Positions 3,215 through 34,019 of a stretch of 34,019 bases of DNA are shown here, piece by piece. The stretch is from NCBI GenBank assembly GCA_026392215.1, contig JAPLCN010000151.1, forward strand, positions 1 to 34,019. The letters are read 5' to 3'. The notes under the pieces are model-generated. The model saw only the letters and a list, made by a program, of their open reading frames with translations. It did not search any database and was not told the origin of the DNA. The first letter of the stretch is position 1; every line of letters starts with the position of its first letter. A program made the translations under genes and the position numbers. Origin of the DNA: Actinomycetota bacterium (GTDB lineage Bacteria > Actinomycetota > Humimicrobiia > Humimicrobiales > Humimicrobiaceae).

Positions 3215-3349
3215 TTAAAAAATTATTTTAAGGTTTTGCTGCTAGCATATAAAAGTAATTTTCAAATCAGAGTATTATTTTTCAATAAATTAAGAAGTTA
3301 ATAAGTAAAAAGATGTTATCAAACCAAACAAATTATAGAAGATTTTAAC

Positions 3350-3400
3350 AAAACAAAAAAATAAGGGTGGGTAATCTTAACAAATAAAATTACCTACCCC
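3350..3400 (-). terminator. Rho-independent terminator downstream of the transaldolase gene
   Basis: Minus-strand GGGGTAGGTAAT-13 nt loop-ATTACCCACCC followed by TTATTTTTTTGTTTTG. Confidence 0.75.
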
Positions 3401-3531
3401 TCGTCAAACTTGCTAAATTTACAAAATACAAAATAAAATACAAAAAATTAATAATTATCTTATATTTTCCATTTAATCCTTGGTTATTAATTTATACTTG
3501 ATAGATAAATTACCTGGCAATGATTAAAAGT

Positions 3532-4728
3532 TTATTTTAATGCCTGTTTTCTTTCTGTCACATAACTTTCAATAAATTTCATTGAGTTTAAAAATTCATT
3601 TGCAGTATACTGGAATGCAGGCTGGTCAACAAAATCATCATCTTTAATGCCGTTAACATCATATCCTGCAACAAAATAAGGTATCTTAAGAAGCTTGCCC
3701 ATGATTTCCTCCGGAACTGGCTCATCCCACTTGCATGTAACATCTTTTCCCCTATATAATCCGTTGAAGTCATCAATCATTTCAGGATTAATTGTAAATA
3801 CCATGTCTGCTCCTGCTATTTTCTCTATGTGATAAACCACATCAGGATTAGGGCCTATTCTTGTAGAACAAAGAAGAAGCTTGGACTTGTAGCCATTTGC
3901 CGGATCATTTAAAATATTTAATGCCTTCTTGGCAATTGCAATGCCTGACCATCTTTTTAGCTCATCTGTGAGTTCGATCCCGGCAGATTTTGCACTTTCC
4001 TTAAATTGCTCCCTGTCTTCAAACCTTGCAAGCATTATTGTTATAACTGATCTCCATTTTGTGTAAGAAACGCCCTTGCTTTTGCCTAGCTCAAGGCCTT
4101 TTTTAACAGCTTCTGCAACCGCAATTGCCTGCGGAACATTAAATACCAGGGTTGAGTTTGTAGGGATTCCAATCGAAGTCAAAACCTGTATTACATAAAT
4201 GCCTTCTTTTGAGCCCGGGCATTTAATCATTATGTTTTCCCCTTGTTTCTTAAGTTCAAGTCCCTGCAGAAGCATCTCTCTTATATTGGTTATCTGATTC
4301 GGGTCAACCTGTGCGCTGACATAACCTCTTTTATATCCTGATTTTTCAAATAACGGCATGTAAAGTTTTGTGCCTTCTGCAGTTATTGCCTTATAAACTT
4401 CCCATGCTATCCCGTAATCTGTTTTTGCAGGATTTTCTTTAATTAATCTGTCAATAATCGGATTTACATCTTCTGGAATTAATTCCAGAACCTTGCTGGT
4501 AAGCTTGGGATTTGTAGTAACTCCGTCAAAAACCATATCATCGGGCCTGTTATAATCAAAGAGCTTGCTTAACTGGCTTTCCATTGCGTTTTTATAGCCA
4601 GGCTCGGTTTTTTCAAGCACTTTTTCTGACCAGGATTTATATATTAAAGGAGATGAGTCCCACCATACTTCCATACCCTCAGAAGTATTTGAGAGCCTTT
4701 CAATTGCTGACTCTTTATAGTTTTGCAT
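3532..4728 (-). CDS. Transaldolase-family protein (398 aa form)
   Basis: VFDGVTTNPKLTSKVLE, and the Schiff-base lysine region IMIKCPGSKEGIYVIQVLTSIGIPTNSTLVFNVPQAI. Confidence 0.85.
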   Translation of the reverse strand: MQNYKESAIERLSNTSEGMEVWWDSSPLIYKSWSEKVLEKTEPGYKNAMESQLSKLFDYNRPDDMVFDGVTTNPKLTSKVLELIPEDVNPIIDRLIKENPAKTDYGIAWEVYKAITAEGTKLYMPLFEKSGYKRGYVSAQVDPNQITNIREMLLQGLELKKQGENIMIKCPGSKEGIYVIQVLTSIGIPTNSTLVFNVPQAIAVAEAVKKGLELGKSKGVSYTKWRSVITIMLARFEDREQFKESAKSAGIELTDELKRWSGIAIAKKALNILNDPANGYKSKLLLCSTRIGPNPDVVYHIEKIAGADMVFTINPEMIDDFNGLYRGKDVTCKWDEPVPEEIMGKLLKIPYFVAGYDVNGIKDDDFVDQPAFQYTANEFLNSMKFIESYVTERKQALK

Positions 4729-24383: not shown

Positions 24384-25220
24384 TTAAATTTTAAACCAGC
24401 TGTCATAAATCTTTGAGTAAGTCCCGTCATCTTTTAATTCTTTCATTATCTGATTTATTTTGTCTTTTAAAGGGCTGCCCTTTTTAAATACTATTGCATA
24501 TTTTATAATTGACTGGGTTTTCTGAATAAATCTATATGTTTCAGGGTCTTCATTTAATATTTTTACTCCGATTGGTATTGAAATTAAAATTCCCTGTATT
24601 TCTTCTGCCTTTAACCCTTTTATTAATGTCACGACATCATCATAGCCGGTAACTGCATAATTAGATAAAAAATCAGGGTTTAAGTCTTCAATTTCACTTT
24701 TTAACATTCCGACCTTTTTACTAGTAAGATCTTCCTTTAACTTTATATCGCTTGTGCTTAAAGTAAGAGAAATAAATTCCAGCGTATAATAGGGATCAGA
24801 AAAATCAGCTAATTTTTGCCTGTCCGGCGTATTTGTAACCCCCGAAATAATGGCATCAATGTTAGCATCGTTTATCCTGTCAAATATTTCATTCCATGAA
24901 ATCTGGTTGATTTTTAATTCCTTGCCCAGCCTTTTGGCAATTTCACCAGCGATATCTACATCAAAACCGGAAACCTTGTCTCCCATTAAAAAAGCAAAAG
25001 GCGGGAAGGTCGAATCTACTCCCACGTTAAAAAAATTACTGTATGCTGTATTTTCAGCCTCTGATGATAATGGGGTGGACTTAGAATTTGAAATATTTAT
25101 CTTACTGCACCCCTGTATTAAAAAAGATAAAATAATGGAAATTAATACAAATACTACTACTGCTGTTTTTATAATTACAAACTTATTTTTGCTAATTGTT
25201 TTTAAATTTATTAATTTAAT
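24384..25220 (-). CDS. ABC transporter solute-binding lipoprotein (polar amino-acid type, SBP family 3)
   Basis: VDSTFPPFAFLMGDKVSGFDVDIAGEIAKRLGKELKINQISWNEIFDRINDANIDAIISGVTNTPDRQKLADFSDPYY. Reading upstream in frame reveals TAVVVFVLISIILSFLIQGCSK, a lipobox signal peptide missed by the track start (GTG 25025). Confidence 0.87.
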   Translation of the reverse strand: MKLINLKTISKNKFVIIKTAVVVFVLISIILSFLIQGCSKINISNSKSTPLSSEAENTAYSNFFNVGVDSTFPPFAFLMGDKVSGFDVDIAGEIAKRLGKELKINQISWNEIFDRINDANIDAIISGVTNTPDRQKLADFSDPYYTLEFISLTLSTSDIKLKEDLTSKKVGMLKSEIEDLNPDFLSNYAVTGYDDVVTLIKGLKAEEIQGILISIPIGVKILNEDPETYRFIQKTQSIIKYAIVFKKGSPLKDKINQIMKELKDDGTYSKIYDSWFKI

Positions 25221-25320: not shown

Positions 25321-27270
25321 TTAAATTATTTCTTCAGGGGAAGGAAATGAAACGCTTGTTGCAAAATGATCGCTGAACGAAGGGAATATGGTAAGTTCCA
25401 GGTAATTATCCATTTTCCCGATGTCTTCTGCAATTTTTCTTTGATCTTTTGAAATCAATGCCATTTTTGCACCTATGCTGGCAGCGTTTCCTACCTGGCT
25501 TATTTTCTTTAACGGCACATTTGGAAACATTCCTATATTAATAACATTCTTTGGATCTATGTATGAGCCAAACGCTCCTGCAATAATTATTTTGTCAATG
25601 TCCGTGAAATTGATTTTTGCATTTTCAAGAAGAATTTCAATACCGGCTCTCATTGCGCCCTTTGCAAGCTGGATTTCAACAATGTCTCTCTGGTTTATAG
25701 ATATTACCTCATCACAGGAACATAATGATTTCTTAACCAGTTCCATATCTTTTTCAGAAGAGCCGTTTACGCCTTTTATGAAATCAGCTCCACAATTTTG
25801 ATTTTGCTCCATTCTTTTTATATGAAAATCGGCAATCAGAACATACTGAAGGTTACCCATATTATCTTTACATATGCATCCGCTTTCCAGATTAAACTTC
25901 CCCCTCTTATTTATAATATTTGCTTTAAGCATCTCTGCAATGGCATCTAAGATGCCTGAACCGCAAATGCCGGCAGGCTCCTTGTCATCTATTGTCTGAA
26001 TCTTAGGAATGCAGGTCTGTGGGTCTATTATCACTCTCTCTATTGCGCCGGGAGCCGCCCTCATTCCATAACGGATATGCGCACCTTCAAAAGCAGGGCC
26101 CGAAGCAGTAGAAACGCTGTAAAGTTTACCCCGGCTTATAAGGGCAATCTCTGTATTTGTTCCAATATCTATACCTATGCAATTGCCTTCCATGTTATAT
26201 AAGCTTGTGGAAAGAATCATTGCTAAATGGTCAGAACCTATAAACCCGGCAACTACCGGCATAAGATAAATATAACCCCCTGAAGCAATGTTTATCCCGA
26301 CTTCCCTTGCCTTCAAATCCAGACAGTCACTTGTTAAAGCAGGGAAAGGTGACAAGCCCAGCTGCCTTACCGGAAGCCCCAAAAATAAATGGTGCATTGC
26401 CGTATTGCCAACTAGCGTCATCTCAAGTATTTCACTTGTTTTAAGAGCGTTTGAGTCGCATAAATCTTTAACAGCTCCATTGATGGCATCAAGGACAACC
26501 TGCTGAATCTGGCTTAACTTTGAGCTGCCTTCAGATGCAAAGTCTATCCTGCTCATTACGTCTTCACCGAAACTAATTTGAGGGTTCATGACTCCTTTTT
26601 TATCAATTGTCTTTCCGGTTGACAGATCGACAAGCAGTGCAGCGATCTTTGTCGTTCCTAAATCCACGGCTATCCCAAAATTTCTGGCAGTTCTGTCTTT
26701 ACCTTCTATTAATATGATTTCACCGTTTCTCTCTGAAACAGTAATTTCCCAGCCATTTTCGCGAAGTATTTGAGGCATTTCACCCAATACATGGAAGTCA
26801 ATCCTGTTTATATCTATGCTGTGGGTATTTTTTAATGCGTCTTTTATCCTGTTAAAATCAGCTTTAACATCTTTTAGGGTTGCGCGCTCAAGTTTTATAT
26901 AATATTTTTTTACTGTCGGATCAACCTTTATATCTCTTTCCTGTCCGACAACCTGAAGCTTCTGCTCTTCGCTTAAGGAAGATGCAGGAATATATATGCT
27001 TGTATCTTCGGTAAAATCATGCTGGCATGCAAGCCTTACTCCATGTGCAATTTCTTCTTTTGAAAGCATCTTGAGCTCCTGCTCTGTCGGTTCCTTTATG
27101 CTGCCATTCATGAACATTATTCTGTCCTTGCCGCATGTACCTTTACCCCGGCAGACTGATTTGATTTCTATGCCGGCATCCTGGATGGATTTCAGGCAAT
27201 TGGCAGGACTCCCAGAAAAAAACCTTATTCCTATAGGCTCGACTTCTATTTTAATTTTATTTTTTGACAT
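25321..27270 (-). CDS. RACo-like corrinoid activation/regeneration protein (2Fe-2S-type N-terminus plus ASKHA/DUF4445)
   Basis: N-terminal SVCRGKGTCGKDRIMF...RLACQ; ASKHA motifs FGIAVDLGTTKIAALLVDLSTGKTI, VGNTAMHHLFLGLPV, GIDIGTNTEIALISRG, IIIAGAFGSYIDPKN. Confidence 0.9.
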   Translation of the reverse strand: MSKNKIKIEVEPIGIRFFSGSPANCLKSIQDAGIEIKSVCRGKGTCGKDRIMFMNGSIKEPTEQELKMLSKEEIAHGVRLACQHDFTEDTSIYIPASSLSEEQKLQVVGQERDIKVDPTVKKYYIKLERATLKDVKADFNRIKDALKNTHSIDINRIDFHVLGEMPQILRENGWEITVSERNGEIILIEGKDRTARNFGIAVDLGTTKIAALLVDLSTGKTIDKKGVMNPQISFGEDVMSRIDFASEGSSKLSQIQQVVLDAINGAVKDLCDSNALKTSEILEMTLVGNTAMHHLFLGLPVRQLGLSPFPALTSDCLDLKAREVGINIASGGYIYLMPVVAGFIGSDHLAMILSTSLYNMEGNCIGIDIGTNTEIALISRGKLYSVSTASGPAFEGAHIRYGMRAAPGAIERVIIDPQTCIPKIQTIDDKEPAGICGSGILDAIAEMLKANIINKRGKFNLESGCICKDNMGNLQYVLIADFHIKRMEQNQNCGADFIKGVNGSSEKDMELVKKSLCSCDEVISINQRDIVEIQLAKGAMRAGIEILLENAKINFTDIDKIIIAGAFGSYIDPKNVINIGMFPNVPLKKISQVGNAASIGAKMALISKDQRKIAEDIGKMDNYLELTIFPSFSDHFATSVSFPSPEEII

Positions 27271-27685
27271 TCTTCTCTATTTCTTCTTTAATGAATTTTT
27301 CGAAATCTGCGCCGGTTTTCATTAAATTTGCTAATTCTCCGTCTTTGTTTGATGGTTTTATTTTTCCAATCCATCCTTCGTTGTAGCATGATTCATTAAT
27401 GAGCTCCGGAGAATCGTCCAGATCGTTGTTTAATTCAATGACTTCTCCTGAAAATGGAGCAAAAACCCTGCCGACCCATTTGCCTGATTCAAGGCTTGAT
27501 ATTGATTTGCCCTGTTCAACCTTTGCACCTTTCATAGGAAGCTCAATATATACTATTTCTCCTGACATTTTCTGAAAATAGTCCGTAGCTCCAAATAATA
27601 TATTGCCATCCTCTAAAATTTTTGCCCAGAAATGATTTTTTTCATAATACAAATCGTCCGGAAATTCATAGTTTTCAATATTCAT
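27257..27685 (-). CDS. GcvH-like lipoyl carrier protein
   Basis: FGATDYFQKMSGEIVYIELPMKGAKVEQGKSISSLESGKWVGRVFAPFSGEVIELNNDLDDSPELINESCYNEGWIGKIKPS; lipoylation-type lysine in ESGKW. Confidence 0.9.
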   Translation of the reverse strand: MNIENYEFPDDLYYEKNHFWAKILEDGNILFGATDYFQKMSGEIVYIELPMKGAKVEQGKSISSLESGKWVGRVFAPFSGEVIELNNDLDDSPELINESCYNEGWIGKIKPSNKDGELANLMKTGADFEKFIKEEIEKNVKK

Positions 27686-27830: not shown

Positions 27831-29042
27831 TTAAAGCTTCTCGCTCTGAATGCTTTGCAAAACAAGTTCAGGAAGATCTATTACCTTAACTTTGGCATTA
27901 GTTTCTTTTTTCTTCTTTTTAAGAGAAGCGTCTATTGTCCTGTTGCACTGCTGGCATGAAGTTACTACAATATCTGCACCTGTTTCTATTATTTCATCTG
28001 CTTTTGCAAGCGCAATTTTTGATGCAAGCGCCTGATTGACTGATTCAAGGTTCCCTCCCCCGCCGCAGCAGTTTGCTAGTTTTCTGTTTGCAGCCATATC
28101 AATAAAATCAATTCCCGGAATGCTCTTTATTACATCTCTTGGCTCCGCGTAAATTCCTGAATTTCTTCCCAGATCACAAGGGTCATGATATGTAATTTTG
28201 CCGGAAAGAGGACCCAATTTTATTTTTCCTTCTTTTATAAGCCTTAACAGATATTGTGAAATATGAAGTATCTCAAAATCAACCTTTTCACTTAAGTATT
28301 TTGGATATTCATGCTTCCATGTGTGATAGCAGGAAGGACACGATAAAACAAGAAGCTTTGCACCTTTTGATTTAACCGCGTCTATATTGTGCTTTGCCAG
28401 GTCCCCAACTACATCCTTTATACCTGAATTTATAAGAGGAAAACCGCAGCACCATTCTTCCTCTCCAAGTAAAGTATAGTCAACTTTTGCGCTGTCAAAA
28501 TCCTGAACAATTGAACGCGGTATCCCAAATGATCTTGGAGAAAAAGAGGAAACGCACCCTACAAAATAAACTACTTCTGCTTTCGCTTTAACATATTTTT
28601 CCGGTTCGCCTTCCGGCAGCTGCGCTGCCCAGTCAAGCCTGCCGGTATTGCTGTCAAAAGTTACATTGTAAGCTTTTTTTATTCTCTCCTTTAATATATC
28701 AAGAACCTGGGGATATTTATGAGCATCAATTAAGTCTGACTTGGCTGTGCTGATCATCTCATCAAGCTTAACTCCGCTTGGACATTCGCTCGTGCATATA
28801 TTGCAGGCTGTGCATGTAAAAAGCTTTTCGGAAATCTTATCACTATATTCAATCTTTCCTTTGCTGATTGCCTCAAGTAAGCTCATTTTCCCTCTCGGGG
28901 CAAGGCTTTCATCTAAAGTCTGCTTGTAAATCGGGCAGTAAGCAAGGCAGGTTCCGCACCTGCTGCAGCTGTAAAGTTCATCGCCCTTTTCAAGTATGGC
29001 AAATTTTTCCTTTTTATTTTTTATTTTAACTTCTGATTCCAA
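27831..29042 (-). CDS. GlcF/HdrD-like Fe-S protein with two ferredoxin motifs and two CCG domains
   Basis: CSRCGTCLAYCP and CTACNICTSECP; CCG motifs WCCGFPLINSG...SCPSC and NCCGGGGNLE...SCQQC. Confidence 0.92.
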   Translation of the reverse strand: MESEVKIKNKKEKFAILEKGDELYSCSRCGTCLAYCPIYKQTLDESLAPRGKMSLLEAISKGKIEYSDKISEKLFTCTACNICTSECPSGVKLDEMISTAKSDLIDAHKYPQVLDILKERIKKAYNVTFDSNTGRLDWAAQLPEGEPEKYVKAKAEVVYFVGCVSSFSPRSFGIPRSIVQDFDSAKVDYTLLGEEEWCCGFPLINSGIKDVVGDLAKHNIDAVKSKGAKLLVLSCPSCYHTWKHEYPKYLSEKVDFEILHISQYLLRLIKEGKIKLGPLSGKITYHDPCDLGRNSGIYAEPRDVIKSIPGIDFIDMAANRKLANCCGGGGNLESVNQALASKIALAKADEIIETGADIVVTSCQQCNRTIDASLKKKKKETNAKVKVIDLPELVLQSIQSEKL

Positions 29043-29109: not shown

Positions 29110-30495
29110 TTAAGCATCCCAGGTGCATTTCATTTTCCCGGGATTTAATATATTGTTCGGGTCAAAAGAATTCTTAATTTTTTTCATCAGATCATAAACA
29201 GGCTTACTGATCTCAAGCTTCAGATATTGGGCTTTGGTAATCCCGATGCCGTGTTCTCCTGAAAGTGTGCCTCCAAGGGCAATAGTAACTTTAAAAATTT
29301 CTTCAATTACCCTTTCAGTTTTTTTGGATTGTTCAGGAATCCTTAAATCTGTAAGGATTGTAGGATGCAGATTGCCGTCACCTGCATGGCCGAATGTTCC
29401 TATCAGCATTCCGTATTTCTTTGCAATTTCATTTACTGCTTCTACCAGTTCAACTATCCTGCTTCTCGGGACAGTTGCATCTTCAAGTATAGTGGAAGGC
29501 CTGATTCTTGAAAGCGAGGAAAGGGCTGCTCTTCTTGCCGACCAGAGTTCATCTCTTTCCTGTGCACTTTTTGCCTGCCTTACTGAAAGGGCGCTATTTG
29601 ACCGGCATACCTTCATTACAATGCCAGCTTCTATTTCAACTGCGCCTTTTTGTCCGTCAACCTCTATTAAAAGCATTGCTCCTACCGTTCTGTCGAGGCC
29701 AATCTTTAAGAAATCTTCAATTGCATTAATGGTCACTTTATCTACTATTTCAAGTGTTGCAGTTATAACTCCTTCGGCCACTATGTCACGCACTGTTTTT
29801 GCTGCATCAGTCATGTTTTTAAAAAATGCAAGGATGCTGGCTCTGTCAGCAGGAACAGGAAGAAGCCCGAGAGTTGCTTTGGTAATTATTCCAAGTGTCC
29901 CTTCAGAACCGCACATCAAATCTACCAGGTTGTATCCGGTGACTGCTTTTACAGTATTTGTACCCATATTTACTATTTCACCGGTTGGAAGAACTACTTC
30001 AATAGAATTTATATAGTCTTTTGTAACTCCATACTTTAATCCCCTTAAGCCTCCGGCATTTTCGGCAATATTTCCCCCTATTGTTGAGCTTTTCATACTG
30101 CCCGGATCTGGCGGGTAAAACAGTTTTAAGTGCTCAACAGCTTTACTGACATTTTCAGTTATGACTCCTGCTTCCACTGTTGCCAGCAAATCTATGGGAT
30201 TTATGTCAATTATTTTATTCATAGCAACCATTACAAGGCTGATGCCGCCTTCAACTGCAAGACAGCCTCCGCTTAATCCTGTTGCCGCACCTCTCGGGGT
30301 TACCGGAATTGTGTATTCATTTGCCAGTTTCATTATCCGGCTTATCTGTTCTGCGGTTTTAACTTTAACAACAACATCGGGCATATATTCCAGCCTTGTA
30401 GAGTCATAGCTGTAAGTTAATCTTTCTTCAAAAGAAGTAATAACATTTTCAGGATTAACTATTTGTTCAAGTTCGGCGGTGTAATTCTTATCCAT
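29110..30495 (-). CDS. FAD-linked 2-hydroxyacid oxidase/dehydrogenase (GlcD/D-lactate dehydrogenase type)
   Basis: VTPRGAATGLSGGCLAVEGGISLVM; FYPPDPGSMKSSTIGGNIAENAGGLRGLKYGVTKDY; GTFGHAGDGNLHPTIL; GGTLSGEHGIGITK. Confidence 0.95.
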   Translation of the reverse strand: MDKNYTAELEQIVNPENVITSFEERLTYSYDSTRLEYMPDVVVKVKTAEQISRIMKLANEYTIPVTPRGAATGLSGGCLAVEGGISLVMVAMNKIIDINPIDLLATVEAGVITENVSKAVEHLKLFYPPDPGSMKSSTIGGNIAENAGGLRGLKYGVTKDYINSIEVVLPTGEIVNMGTNTVKAVTGYNLVDLMCGSEGTLGIITKATLGLLPVPADRASILAFFKNMTDAAKTVRDIVAEGVITATLEIVDKVTINAIEDFLKIGLDRTVGAMLLIEVDGQKGAVEIEAGIVMKVCRSNSALSVRQAKSAQERDELWSARRAALSSLSRIRPSTILEDATVPRSRIVELVEAVNEIAKKYGMLIGTFGHAGDGNLHPTILTDLRIPEQSKKTERVIEEIFKVTIALGGTLSGEHGIGITKAQYLKLEISKPVYDLMKKIKNSFDPNNILNPGKMKCTWDA

Positions 30496-30685
30496 TTGTT
30501 ATTATCAGGTCCTTTACAATAATTTTTATAAAAAAATATTTAAAATTATTATCTATTCCTGGGCAAATTGCAATAATAGGCGCTTACAATAAATTTTAAG
30601 AAAGGCTAATTTAAAAAATAGTCTGATTTTGCCTTAAATTAAATAATATTAAAAAGATACGAAATACCGGTTTTAAAAATTATCA

Positions 30686-31960
30686 CTAAATCACCGGTAT
30701 GGTATATGGCCCTTCTGGAATAACATTAATAGTTGCATTATTGCCATACTTTTTTAAGCCGGCATTTACTGCTTCTTCAATTGAATTTACAATTTTTATT
30801 GTTGAATAAGGTATTTTATACTGACTTGCCAACATGCAAGGACTATATAAATTAATTTCAGCTTTTCTTCTTGCCTTTACCAATTCTTCTAATTCCCACT
30901 GATCTATTTCAAAATAATTAGGGTTTTTTATCTTATTAATAAATACTTCTAAATCAACTTCCTGTGTTATCAGATCAATAAATTCCTTGCTTCCTATTTC
31001 CTCATTGCATTCTGAAGCTATTATTATCATCCCATCGTTTTTTACAGCAGGAAGTGAACAAACCATGCCTTTTACAGCCTGATACAACGTTGCATCCAGT
31101 GGAAGTCCTCCTCCTGAAGTTATAACAATATCAGCTTCCCCTTTTATCATGGCGCGGCTTGAATTGCTGCAAAATAAGGCTCCTTTATTAAATGCTTCTT
31201 CCAAATCTCCGCTAAAAACTCCTGTAACGTCTCTGTTCTTGTTAATTGTAACGTTGACAATAAAATCAACGCCCGCTTTTTTGGCAATTTCAGTTGATTC
31301 CAGATGAAAAGGATTATTCTCAAGATTAGCGTTGGAAGCGTAATGGGATTCAAGAATTTCAGGACCGTGAAAATGCTTGAACATATCCAGATAGCTTATG
31401 CCAGGGCATATAGCTTTTCTTCCACCCGAAAAACCTGCCATGAAATGCGGTTCAATAAGGCCTGTAAGTATTCTGAAATCACATTCAAGATAAGCTTTGT
31501 CAATAATTATAGGGGTACCTTTTTTTGTTTTACCTATATATTCGCAGGTTTCTCTTTCCCTTGCATAATGGTTGACAATCCTGTAGTTTTCCTTGACGGA
31601 TGTGCCAACAAGACTTTCAAGCTCTTCATTAAGGTTTGGCCTGTGAAGACCTGTTGCAATCAGTATCGTAATCTGTTCTTTTTTTATGCCATAATTTTCA
31701 AGCTCTCCCAGCAGAACTTCGAGGATTAATTTTGTTGGAACAGCTCTTGTAGAGTCAGAAATCACTATGCATATTTTTTGTCTGCCTTTTACTTTTTCTT
31801 TAAGAGCAATGCTGCCTGTCGGATTACTAAAGCTTTCTATTAAAGCTTTTTTTGTGTCTGCTATCGGGGTTGCGCCTTTGCTTTCAATTATTTCAAGCAA
31901 ATTTCTCTCATTTATTTCAAATTCCAGACCAACATTACCATAGCTTAATTTTATTTTCAT
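30686..31960 (-). CDS. LarA-like nickel-pincer racemase (DUF2088 family)
   Basis: ICIVISDSTRAVPT, ILIATGLHRPN, LIEPHFMAGFSGGRKAICPGISYLDMFKHFHGP, ADIVITSGGGLPLDATLYQAVKGM. Confidence 0.9.
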   Translation of the reverse strand: MKIKLSYGNVGLEFEINERNLLEIIESKGATPIADTKKALIESFSNPTGSIALKEKVKGRQKICIVISDSTRAVPTKLILEVLLGELENYGIKKEQITILIATGLHRPNLNEELESLVGTSVKENYRIVNHYARERETCEYIGKTKKGTPIIIDKAYLECDFRILTGLIEPHFMAGFSGGRKAICPGISYLDMFKHFHGPEILESHYASNANLENNPFHLESTEIAKKAGVDFIVNVTINKNRDVTGVFSGDLEEAFNKGALFCSNSSRAMIKGEADIVITSGGGLPLDATLYQAVKGMVCSLPAVKNDGMIIIASECNEEIGSKEFIDLITQEVDLEVFINKIKNPNYFEIDQWELEELVKARRKAEINLYSPCMLASQYKIPYSTIKIVNSIEEAVNAGLKKYGNNATINVIPEGPYTIPVI

Positions 31961-32017
31961 TTTTTTCCTTAAACCTGATATTTTATGAATTTAATTATTA
32001 AATTATAAAAACTTACA

Positions 32018-32059
32018 CTATTTTATTTTTTTTGTCATTCTTTGACAAGAATAAAATAG
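32018..32059. repeat. Interrupted inverted repeat between BMC-T and larA-like genes
   Basis: CTATTTTATT (32018-32027) / AATAAAATAG (32050-32059) enclosing TGTCATTCTTTGACA. Confidence 0.5.
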
Positions 32060-32195
32060 GTTAAGAAATGTGGAAAATAAACAATTATCTTTAAAAAATT
32101 ATGGAACTTGCGTAAAGGAATTTGCATAAATAAAATATAGTAATCAACTTAATTTTTTATTTAAAAAAATGCATGTTTTTGCTTAACTGTAACTT

Positions 32196-32744
32196 TTAGA
32201 TAACTGCCCGGTACAGGCTTGGATGCGGTGAAGCAATGATCTGATAGTCAACAAGAAAATCTTTTTCCTGCGCATATTTTATTCCAGCCATTACTGATTC
32301 TTTTACCGAAGATATATCTCCGTTAATAATGCAGAAATTTTTACCGCCCAATGCTCTGGCAATCCTTATTTCAACCAAATCAACATCCGAAGCTTTTACA
32401 GCCATATCGGCGGCAACAATAATAGAAGGAGAAGTTAATGTTTCAATAACGCCGATAGCCTTAAATTCCTCTATAATGGTAGTTTGAGTCATTGCAGATA
32501 TTACCTGCGGATACACATTTGCAATGGTTACTGCATCTACTATGAATTTTTCGCTTTCATATAATATGGTATTAAATGAATTCTGCACTTCACTTGCCCC
32601 GCCTGAAAAAAGAATATAATATTTTCCAGGGCAAATGCTTTTTGCATCAACAATATTTACTTCAGAAGCTTTAACAATAATATCTACAGCAGCTATTCCA
32701 ACTGCTATGCTTCGAAATTCTACTATGCCTATTGCTTTTTCCAT
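32196..32744 (-). CDS. Tandem-BMC-domain shell protein (BMC-T, PduT-like)
   Basis: Two BMC domains: AIGIVEFRSIAVGIAAVDIIVKASEVNIVDAKSICPGKYYILFSGG and AIGVIETLTSPSIIVAADMAVKASDVDLVEIRIARALGGKNFCIINGDISSVKESVMAG. Confidence 0.93.
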   Translation of the reverse strand: MEKAIGIVEFRSIAVGIAAVDIIVKASEVNIVDAKSICPGKYYILFSGGASEVQNSFNTILYESEKFIVDAVTIANVYPQVISAMTQTTIIEEFKAIGVIETLTSPSIIVAADMAVKASDVDLVEIRIARALGGKNFCIINGDISSVKESVMAGIKYAQEKDFLVDYQIIASPHPSLYRAVI

Positions 32745-32883
32745 TAACTTGTTACCTTCAATAAAAAATTATTTTTGGCCCAATATACAGATCAAGACTT
32801 GTTTAGCCTTCAAATGGCGCACTGCATTAATCAATAAATTGCTCTTGACAGTTTGTGCGTCACATTTTTAAAATATTTTGCGC

Positions 32884-33282
32884 TTATTTCTTTTCGGCTT
32901 TTTTTTCTTCAGTGCCTGCTGCTTTTGCCGGAGCTGGTGCAGCCTTTGCTGCGTTTACAGGTTTCGGAGTTCTTGCTTTAGGTATTGTCCCTCTGCCTGA
33001 TCTTACACATTTTCCGGAAATTATCTTGTCAAGCTCCTGATGCGGTCTTGGGATAATATCTGTAGCCAGCACTTCAGAAACTCTTTTTGCAGCAATTGTT
33101 CCGGCTTCAACTGCTGATTTAACTGCAGCAACTTCGCCCTGGCATATAACTGTAACAATTCCGCTTCCAATATAAGCTTTGGATATCATAACAACATCTG
33201 CTGATTTTACCATGGCATCAGATGCTTCAACTGCGCCAACAAGCCCTTTAGTCTCAATTAATCCGATTGCTTCACTATTCAT
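32884..33282 (-). CDS. Single-BMC-domain hexameric shell protein (BMC-H, PduA/EutM-like) with low-complexity C-terminal tail
   Basis: EAIGLIETKGLVGAVEASDAMVKSADVVMISKAYIGSGIVTVICQGEVAAVKSAVEAG; tail GRGTIPKARTPKPVNAAKAAPAPAKAAGTEEKKAEKK. Confidence 0.95.
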   Translation of the reverse strand: MNSEAIGLIETKGLVGAVEASDAMVKSADVVMISKAYIGSGIVTVICQGEVAAVKSAVEAGTIAAKRVSEVLATDIIPRPHQELDKIISGKCVRSGRGTIPKARTPKPVNAAKAAPAPAKAAGTEEKKAEKK

Positions 33283-33349
33283 TTATTTTATTCTCCTTTT
33301 AGAAATAAAAGATTATTTTACTTATGTTTAAAATTCTTTTAAAAATTAC

Positions 33350-34019
33350 TTATTTTACAAAGTTCATTGAACCGTAAATTGAAAGCCTTCTTTGTCTTGT
33401 AAATGACCTTGGTGTAGTGCAGCCTTCTCCTGTTGCCCCTGCAATTGTCCATGACGTACCGCCGTTGTGCAAATCTCCGCCGGACCTTTGAGAGGAACCG
33501 TTTACCTGTACCGTTGTTGTATTAACTTCCTGCGCATAGTATGTAATTCTTTCAATATTTGTTGAATGGATAACTGCAGTATGTTTAAAGTTGTGTTCTA
33601 CCCTGCAAGCAATTCTTACGCCTTCTTCAAAGGTATTGACTATTACCATTGGAAGAATAGGCATAAGCTGCTCGTGCTGAACCAGAGGATGCGTTTCATC
33701 ATTTGCAACAAAAACTGCAAGCCTTAAATCATCTCTGGCATTAATACCTGCCTGCTTCAAAATAATCGCACAATTTTTTCCCATAAGTTTCTTGTCGATT
33801 TCACCATTTTTAACAACAAGATTTGTAACTCTTTGAGCCTCTTCGGCATTTAATACAAGACAATTGTTTTTGCCGAATTCACTTAACAGTTTATCTGCAA
33901 CAGATCTCATGCAGATAAGCACTTTTTCTTCATTACAAAGTATGTTGTTGTCAAAAGAAGAGCCGGCAACTATTTCCCTTGCAGCTCTGGCAATATCTGC
34001 AGTGTCATCAACAAAAACC
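33350..34019 (-). CDS. CoA-acylating aldehyde dehydrogenase (PduP/EutE type), N-terminus beyond window
   Basis: The frame is open to the window edge beyond the track ATG: VFVDDTADIARAAREIVAGSSFDNNILCNEEKVLICMRSVADKLL..., with the FDNNxxC active-site region; C-terminus ATGEGCTTPRSFTRQRRLSIYGSMNFVK. Confidence 0.92.
   Translation of the reverse strand, partial: VFVDDTADIARAAREIVAGSSFDNNILCNEEKVLICMRSVADKLLSEFGKNNCLVLNAEEAQRVTNLVVKNGEIDKKLMGKNCAIILKQAGINARDDLRLAVFVANDETHPLVQHEQLMPILPMVIVNTFEEGVRIACRVEHNFKHTAVIHSTNIERITYYAQEVNTTTVQVNGSSQRSGGDLHNGGTSWTIAGATGEGCTTPRSFTRQRRLSIYGSMNFVK

Follow-up and report, generated by a model that had tools for sequence, protein, structure and literature searches.

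Background

Bacterial microcompartments (BMCs) for fucose and rhamnose metabolism are known from Planctomycetota and Verrucomicrobiota, where PVM and PVM-like loci combine a class II aldolase (PF00596), an acylating aldehyde dehydrogenase (ALDH), PduL and the shell proteins BMC-H and BMC-P (PMC4207490, PMC8217296). In PVM compartments, L-lactaldehyde is converted through lactyl-CoA and lactyl-phosphate to L-lactate (PMC8857213). Here we describe a related operon in a 34,019-nucleotide stretch of an Actinomycetota bacterium (contig JAPLCN010000151.1, assembly GCA_026392215.1; hereafter the window), in which BMC genes run into those of a LarA-type 2-hydroxyacid racemase and a GlcD-GlcF-type (GlcDF) dehydrogenase. 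Its signature enzyme is a class II (FucA-like) aldolase, and the locus is therefore PVM-like in BMC classification. The operon probably encodes a PVM-like metabolosome extended by a lactate-oxidation module, with released L-lactate inverted by LarA and oxidized by GlcDF.

The acylating ALDH and PduL accompanied by BMC-H and BMC-P, as well as a PF00596 aldolase with an encapsulation peptide, are shared with PVM-like loci, as is the DeoR regulator of some relatives of the window. Unlike PVM loci sensu stricto, the operon has no lactate/malate-dehydrogenase-type gene; it contains instead PduS and two PduT-type BMC-T proteins, and adds the row LarA-GlcD-GlcF-GcvH-RACo. PVM loci sensu stricto are not known to carry BMC-T.

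Three other described systems share parts of this inventory. In the GRM5 fucose/rhamnose BMC of Clostridium phytofermentans, one locus encodes shell proteins together with a class II aldolase and a PduP-type ALDH; lactaldehyde is an intermediate and a PduS-like protein has been proposed (PMC3557285). In contrast, the window row showed neither an alcohol dehydrogenase gene nor one for a glycyl-radical propanediol dehydratase, and an oxidative lactate branch would take the place of the reducing 1,2-propanediol branch. The SPU (DeoC aldolase) BMC of Atribacterota (PMC6281690, PMC7542362) also unites a sugar-phosphate aldolase with ALDH, PduL and PduS in anaerobic subsurface bacteria, whereas the aldolase here is FucA-like, RpiB is absent from the row and LarA-GlcDF is added. 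In acetogens and butyrate-forming bacteria, exemplified by A. woodii (LctD) and Anaerobutyricum, lct clusters place a racemase beside an LctD-family, FAD-dependent, D-specific lactate dehydrogenase (D-iLDH); this permits L-lactate use, and clusters without a racemase leave L-lactate unusable if no L-iLDH is present (PMC8914356). The window differs in its GlcF-type iron-sulfur partner instead of EtfAB, in having no permease seen and in the fusion with a BMC operon.

The texts of the BMC surveys of Axen 2014 (PMC4207490) and Sutter 2021 (PMC8217296) mention neither a racemase nor glycolate oxidase or glycolate. In the literature searched, no paper was found that combined a microcompartment, a lactate racemase and an aldolase, or Humimicrobi* and a microcompartment; microcompartment with lactate racemase gave a single match, a C. 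ljungdahlii transcriptome study. The operon is apparently a conserved but unreported extension of a known kind of BMC.

A conserved operon joins the BMC genes to LarA, GlcD and GlcF

A metagenome-assembled genome (MAG; G000) of 2.15 Mb in 207 contigs contains the window as one entire contig (C18). Based on open reading frames and on Pfam and NCBIfam matches, its minus strand encodes, in order, an acylating ALDH, BMC-H, BMC-T, LarA, GlcD, GlcF, a GcvH-like protein and a RACo-like activase (Table 1), the genes of the last two overlapping by 14 bp. An earlier note, made from the letters of the window, had described the co-directional row from ALDH to GlcF as lying in 29110-34019. The six genes and their order stand, but GlcF lies outside that interval, and the module also includes GcvH and usually RACo, which the note did not list.

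The right end of C18 overlaps the end of a second contig of the same genome, C15 (8291 bp), over 514 bp at 97% identity, in an orientation that fits a break inside the ALDH gene. C15 carries a BlaI-like regulator on the opposite strand, followed by the upstream half of the BMC operon in the order BMC-P, BMC-P, PduS (RnfC-like), BMC-T, class II aldolase, BMC-H, PduL and the ALDH N-terminus. We infer that the two contigs form one operon from this end overlap and from relatives that carry the same genes on a single contig. The signature enzyme had been expected to the right of the window, and this is where the aldolase is found, together with PduL, PduS and more shell genes.

Conservation was evaluated in 35 genomes from 15 genera of one actinomycetotal family (Ca. 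Humimicrobium and its kin, among them Ca. Humimicrobium oleiphilum UBA1414, Actinomycetota). The gene order of the window recurs across many genera at 55-90% protein identity; the row is more than chance. The aldolase was identified in 18 of the 35 genomes, orthologous LarA in 15 of 25 genomes searched and orthologous GlcD in 15 genomes. Single contigs carry the genes from aldolase through LarA without interruption in G002, G005, G009, G012, G016, G021, G023 and G028 (7 genera). Wherever the upstream side of LarA is present (16 loci), its direct neighbour there is the second BMC-T (BMC-T2), and LarA adjoins GlcD in 13 genomes. The presence of the aldolase is associated with that of LarA (13/1/2/9, Fisher p=0.0002, 25 genomes) and of GlcD (12/6/3/14, p=0.006), P-values that are descriptive only, given that family members do not count as independent samples and that gaps in MAGs make absences uncertain. 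Pairwise divergence of LarA or GlcD tracks that of ALDH, PduL and BMC-T2 (r=0.72-0.87).

BMC-T2 and LarA are separated by 235 bp in the window and by 158-276 bp across its genus, but the distance shrinks to 10 bp in G008, to 3 bp in G023 and G028 and to -4 bp in G005 and G026. No terminator-like site was found in the window's gap. The earlier note had named an operon break at 31960-32196, or a lack of co-occurrence in related genomes, as grounds for rejecting its proposal. No such break is conserved, with gaps in relatives down to a 4-bp overlap, and the co-occurrence of BMC genes, LarA and GlcDF is strong. Thus, the data support its suggestion that the BMC operon runs into LarA-GlcD-GlcF, and they show this operon to be conserved in the family.

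Table 1 Coordinates of the operon genes and of associated features
Feature	Position	Strand	Basis and remarks
Acylating ALDH (EutE/PduP type), C-terminal part	33350..34018	-	Pfam Aldedh, NCBIfam PRK15398; runs off contig end
ALDH, N-terminal part with N-terminal encapsulation peptide	contig C15, L003:6992-8290		joined via 514-bp dovetail, 97%
BMC-H hexameric shell protein	32884..33282	-	PF00936, 76 bits
BMC-T trimeric shell protein, PduT type	32196..32744	-	two BMC domains (Pfam); best PDB matches 3nwg, 3pac, 3n79 PduT
LarA, nickel-pincer-nucleotide 2-hydroxyacid racemase	30686..31960	-	Pfam Lar_N + LarA_C
GlcD-like FAD-dependent D-2-hydroxyacid dehydrogenase	29110..30495	-	FAD_binding_4 + FAD-oxidase_C
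GlcF-like iron-sulfur subunit	27831..29042	-	two 4Fe-4S + two CCG domains (Pfam)
GcvH-like H-protein	27257..27685	-	PF01597, 127 bits
RACo-like ASKHA reductive activase of corrinoid proteins	25321..27270	-	PF14574, PF17651, PF17650
Amino-acid-type solute-binding protein	24384..25025	-	PF00497; after RACo in most relatives, loosely associated
Class II (FucA-like) aldolase	contig C15, 4429-5292		PF00596, 160 bits
Second BMC-P pair, other genomes	L065:13978-17554; L075:14349-17615; L071:16611-17999; L067:7135-10566		

Shell layout and lumenal enzymes

Amphipathic encapsulation peptides are found throughout the family at the C-terminus of the aldolase (e.g. KELVEIIQSTVTNILKQ) and at the N-termini of ALDH (DEKLIEQIVRNVVENV) and PduL (MDTEKLIHDVVKSVMRKL). 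The aldolase peptide is present in 13 of 14 members checked, and the remaining one is cut by a contig end. The catalytic FDNNILC motif of ALDH is conserved. No comparable terminal extension was found on LarA, GlcD or GlcF, which are therefore probably cytosolic, outside the shell. The compartment-linked pathway of the earlier note holds in that LarA-GlcDF belongs to the BMC operon, but these enzymes would act beyond the shell.

Both BMC-T proteins are PduT-like, and the cysteine of their CPGK pore motif is kept in nearly all members; for the BMC-T of the window (motif SICPGKYY), it is kept in 17/17 genomes having the gene. In PduT, the pore-motif cysteine binds a 4Fe-4S cluster. Because PduS is present and the operon contains no alcohol dehydrogenase gene, the likeliest route for NADH recycling, judged by the known PduS/PduT pair, would be electron export through PduS and PduT.

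Further shell genes occur apart from the operon. Two lone BMC-H genes of G000, one on C77 (L012, 2989-3252) directly before a putative uroporphyrinogen-decarboxylase-family methyltransferase (3331-4452, judged by sequence) and another on C58 (L013:2940-3212), may be satellites of the operon's compartment. In several genera, a second BMC-P pair (Table 1) lies just upstream of the BMC operon, beside folD and formate-tetrahydrofolate ligase of one-carbon metabolism.

LarA and its maturation

The equivalents of R72, H106, H172, K182, H198, Y293, Q294 and K297, which serve in nickel-pincer-nucleotide binding and catalysis, are invariant in 13 LarA orthologs. The best solved homolog is LarA_Ip, the broad-spectrum short-chain racemase of Isosphaera pallida (PDB 9eid/9eia). 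By published rules, lactate racemases (LAR) have F,F,W,E/Q at four specificity positions; the window protein has F173, M174, W355 and E356, a quartet that fits LAR or SAR, and a malate, 2-hydroxyglutarate or gluconate type was rejected on pocket residues. At 398 bits, LarA scores below the NCBIfam lactate-racemase equivalog cut-off of 460, and it is also under the MAR and LarAH10 cut-offs. Thus, the scores place it in the superfamily, and lactate specificity is predicted from the pocket residues.

The earlier note had proposed checking for larB/C/E elsewhere in the genome. LarC is present in the window's genome, but LarE was not found in this MAG, although 26 of the 35 family genomes encode it, including three members of the same genus. 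We rejected the idea that a loss of LarE has left a dead LarA, as LarE occurs in the genus and the LarA residues are intact.

A scan of named genomes for LarA relatives yielded 80 loci. Among those outside the family, only the KSB1 genome G081 (L128) has LarA beside an aldolase BMC, in the row SSF transporter, LarA, PduL, BMC-P, BMC-H, ALDH, PduS, BMC-T and aldolase. Its LarA shares 45% identity with that of the window and as much as 71% with its counterparts in other genomes of the KSB1 phylum. As none of these counterparts inspected lies at a BMC, we take the KSB1 association to have arisen separately and once, as one independent case. A widespread LarA-BMC link in KSB1 was rejected, since only the G081 locus adjoins a BMC among the KSB1-phylum loci inspected.

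In two further loci of the scan (L157:9959-12578 and L160:6465-9154), LarA is followed by a lone double-BMC-domain gene, with no aldolase or ALDH nearby. Next come an enolase/mandelate racemase superfamily-like gene and an amidohydrolase-aminotransferase-like fusion, both putative.

GlcD and GlcF

Based on solved structures, GlcD is closest to the D-lactate dehydrogenase LctD of A. woodii (PDB 7qh2_C, E=5e-99). It matches the glcD equivalog of glycolate oxidase (TIGR00387) with 501 bits, below the cut-off of 567.9. EtfAB genes, which adjoin the dehydrogenase in the LctD/Ldh-EtfAB kind, are not its neighbours; the partner is GlcF. This protein carries two 4Fe-4S motifs and two complete CCG (heterodisulfide-reductase-type) cysteine motifs, conserved in relatives, and its best NCBIfam match is TfrB (196 bits).

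A second GlcD paralog (~42% identical) occurs in a separate EtfB-EtfA-LctD unit in G011, G016, G023 and G024 (L209:196-3735, L304:4035-7539, L305, L306); in G000, no second GlcD match was found at the threshold used. Upstream of the BMC operon in G028 (L071:13146-15658), a second GlcF-like protein accompanies a membrane protein of 435 aa that has no match in Pfam and may be cytochrome-b-like. The two may form a membrane exit for electrons.

Proposed pathway and alternatives

The substrate, the direction of flux, the cytosolic place of LarA-GlcDF and the electron acceptors are those that we infer as follows. In the lumen, the aldolase would cleave a deoxy-sugar 1-phosphate to dihydroxyacetone phosphate and a toxic aldehyde, most likely L-lactaldehyde, which the acylating ALDH would convert to lactyl-CoA. 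PduL would yield lactyl-phosphate and a kinase L-lactate, which would be released, while electrons of lumenal NADH would probably leave via PduS and through the Fe-S pores that the two PduT-type trimers form. Outside the shell, LarA would turn L-lactate into D-lactate and GlcD-GlcF would oxidize D-lactate to pyruvate. In G028 the operon also contains DeoR and butyrate-kinase-family genes. That of G016 includes a TIM barrel resembling sugar epimerases and a sugar ABC transporter of the Rbs type; these additions are in keeping with uptake of a sugar and use of an acyl-phosphate. The 2-hydroxyacid-linked pathway of the earlier note gains from the conserved operon, the intact LarA residues and the resemblance of GlcD to LctD, while its substrate stays a prediction.

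If correct, an aldolase-type metabolosome would gain, within a single operon, a full oxidative route out, from aldehyde via acid to pyruvate, in which a nickel racemase adapts the L-product to the D-specificity of the dehydrogenase. Its hosts are uncultured Actinomycetota that are apparently anaerobic. It would predict a substrate for a LarA subfamily, extend BMC pathways beyond the shell and make lumenal NADH recycling by PduS/PduT electron export testable.

Several observations weigh against this pathway. The aldolase scores below every NCBIfam cut-off and its substrate is not readable from sequence. It keeps the equivalents of the catalytic Glu73 and the zinc-binding histidines of E. coli FucA, but not that of Tyr113. 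The surroundings of the remaining class II aldolases inspected yielded no kinase for fucose or rhamnose. Contig C154 carries a ribulokinase and AraD (L-arabinose-type AraB/AraD) with a FucI-family isomerase below cut-off, contig C203 has DeoR, ABC and class II aldolase genes, and neither contig is decisive for the BMC substrate. The operons of G016 and G011 have lost GlcD-GlcF-GcvH, with LarA kept and followed by RACo. Given its 158-276 bp gap and a promoter-like match at 32048-32020 in the window, an extra internal promoter before LarA is possible in the window's genus. To these points are added the LarE missing from the MAG and the KSB1-phylum LarAs outside G081, with 0 of 20 loci inspected beside a BMC, some of them on short contigs.

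LarA-GlcDF(-GcvH) could also be an ordinary module for uptake and oxidation of external lactate that merely shares the BMC transcript. Racemase and D-lactate dehydrogenase modules without a BMC are well known, a spirochaete locus (L161) has GlcD-GlcF-LarA with no BMC genes nearby, and the lack of encapsulation peptides on LarA and GlcDF would be expected. We regard this as unlikely, however, because the order is conserved family-wide with gaps so short that reading frames can overlap, the family loci inspected showed no orthologous LarA apart from shell genes, no lactate permease was seen in the row, and the L-lactate of PVM biochemistry is itself a racemase substrate.

Other readings change the aldehyde. 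Were it glyceraldehyde and the acid glycerate, LarA would interconvert L- and D-glycerate, with GlcDF or a kinase continuing. The aldolase has no assignment to a 6-deoxy substrate, and some LAR-type LarA proteins prefer glycerate, such as LarAH43 with Gln at the T359 position (PMC11770544). The window LarA has Glu at that position (Gln in one relative), like the lactate-active LarAH51, and the closeness of GlcD to a lactate dehydrogenase also makes glycerate rather improbable. Alternatively, glycolaldehyde could arise from a ketopentose 1-phosphate, with GlcDF a true glycolate dehydrogenase leading to glyoxylate, glycine and the H-protein, and LarA acting on another acid. The match of GlcD to the glycolate oxidase model, the GcvH gene adjoining GlcF and the pentose-type epimerase-like TIM barrel of G016 are in line with this scheme. 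Yet glycolate is achiral and needs no racemase, while LarA is kept where GlcDF was lost; GlcD falls under the glcD cut-off and is nearest LctD; and G024 has a separate, complete glycine cleavage operon with its own H-protein. We therefore consider the glycolate scheme very improbable.

The GcvH-like protein and RACo

The lipoyl-lysine motif SSLESGKWVG of the operon GcvH is invariant in the alignment. Every locus that shows the operon GlcDF together with its downstream side also has GcvH, and GcvH disappears with GlcDF in G016 and G011, whereas RACo is kept. No GcvT or GcvP gene lies beside it. G024 encodes a complete GcvT-GcvH-GcvPA-GcvPB operon elsewhere, whose H-protein is only 35% identical to the operon GcvH, which weakens the interpretation of the latter as a glycine cleavage H-protein. 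The other H-protein of G000 is, by our reading of its sequence, of the 'GcvH-related' kind beside putative zinc-binding proteins.

The operon GcvH, an unexplained extra of the module, flags a lipoyl protein tied to the GlcDF enzyme. Because it tracks GlcDF and G024 keeps both H-proteins, it may be a dedicated lipoyl partner. A doubtful further step would be a three-part 2-hydroxyacid:lipoyl-protein oxidoreductase, GlcD-GlcF-GcvH, in which D-lactate electrons reach the lipoyl group through the CCG clusters of GlcF. The H-protein would then resemble the lipoate-binding protein known from sHdr systems, but tied to a metabolosome.

On C154 of G000 (L310:1123-3307), the sequences suggest an MttB-like methyltransferase and a corrinoid protein that would bind B12; both are candidate partners of the RACo-like activase of the window. 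The glycine cleavage operon of G024 is headed by a GcvT fused to a serine-hydroxymethyltransferase-like domain (L300:3901-6522), and a like gene is present in G029.

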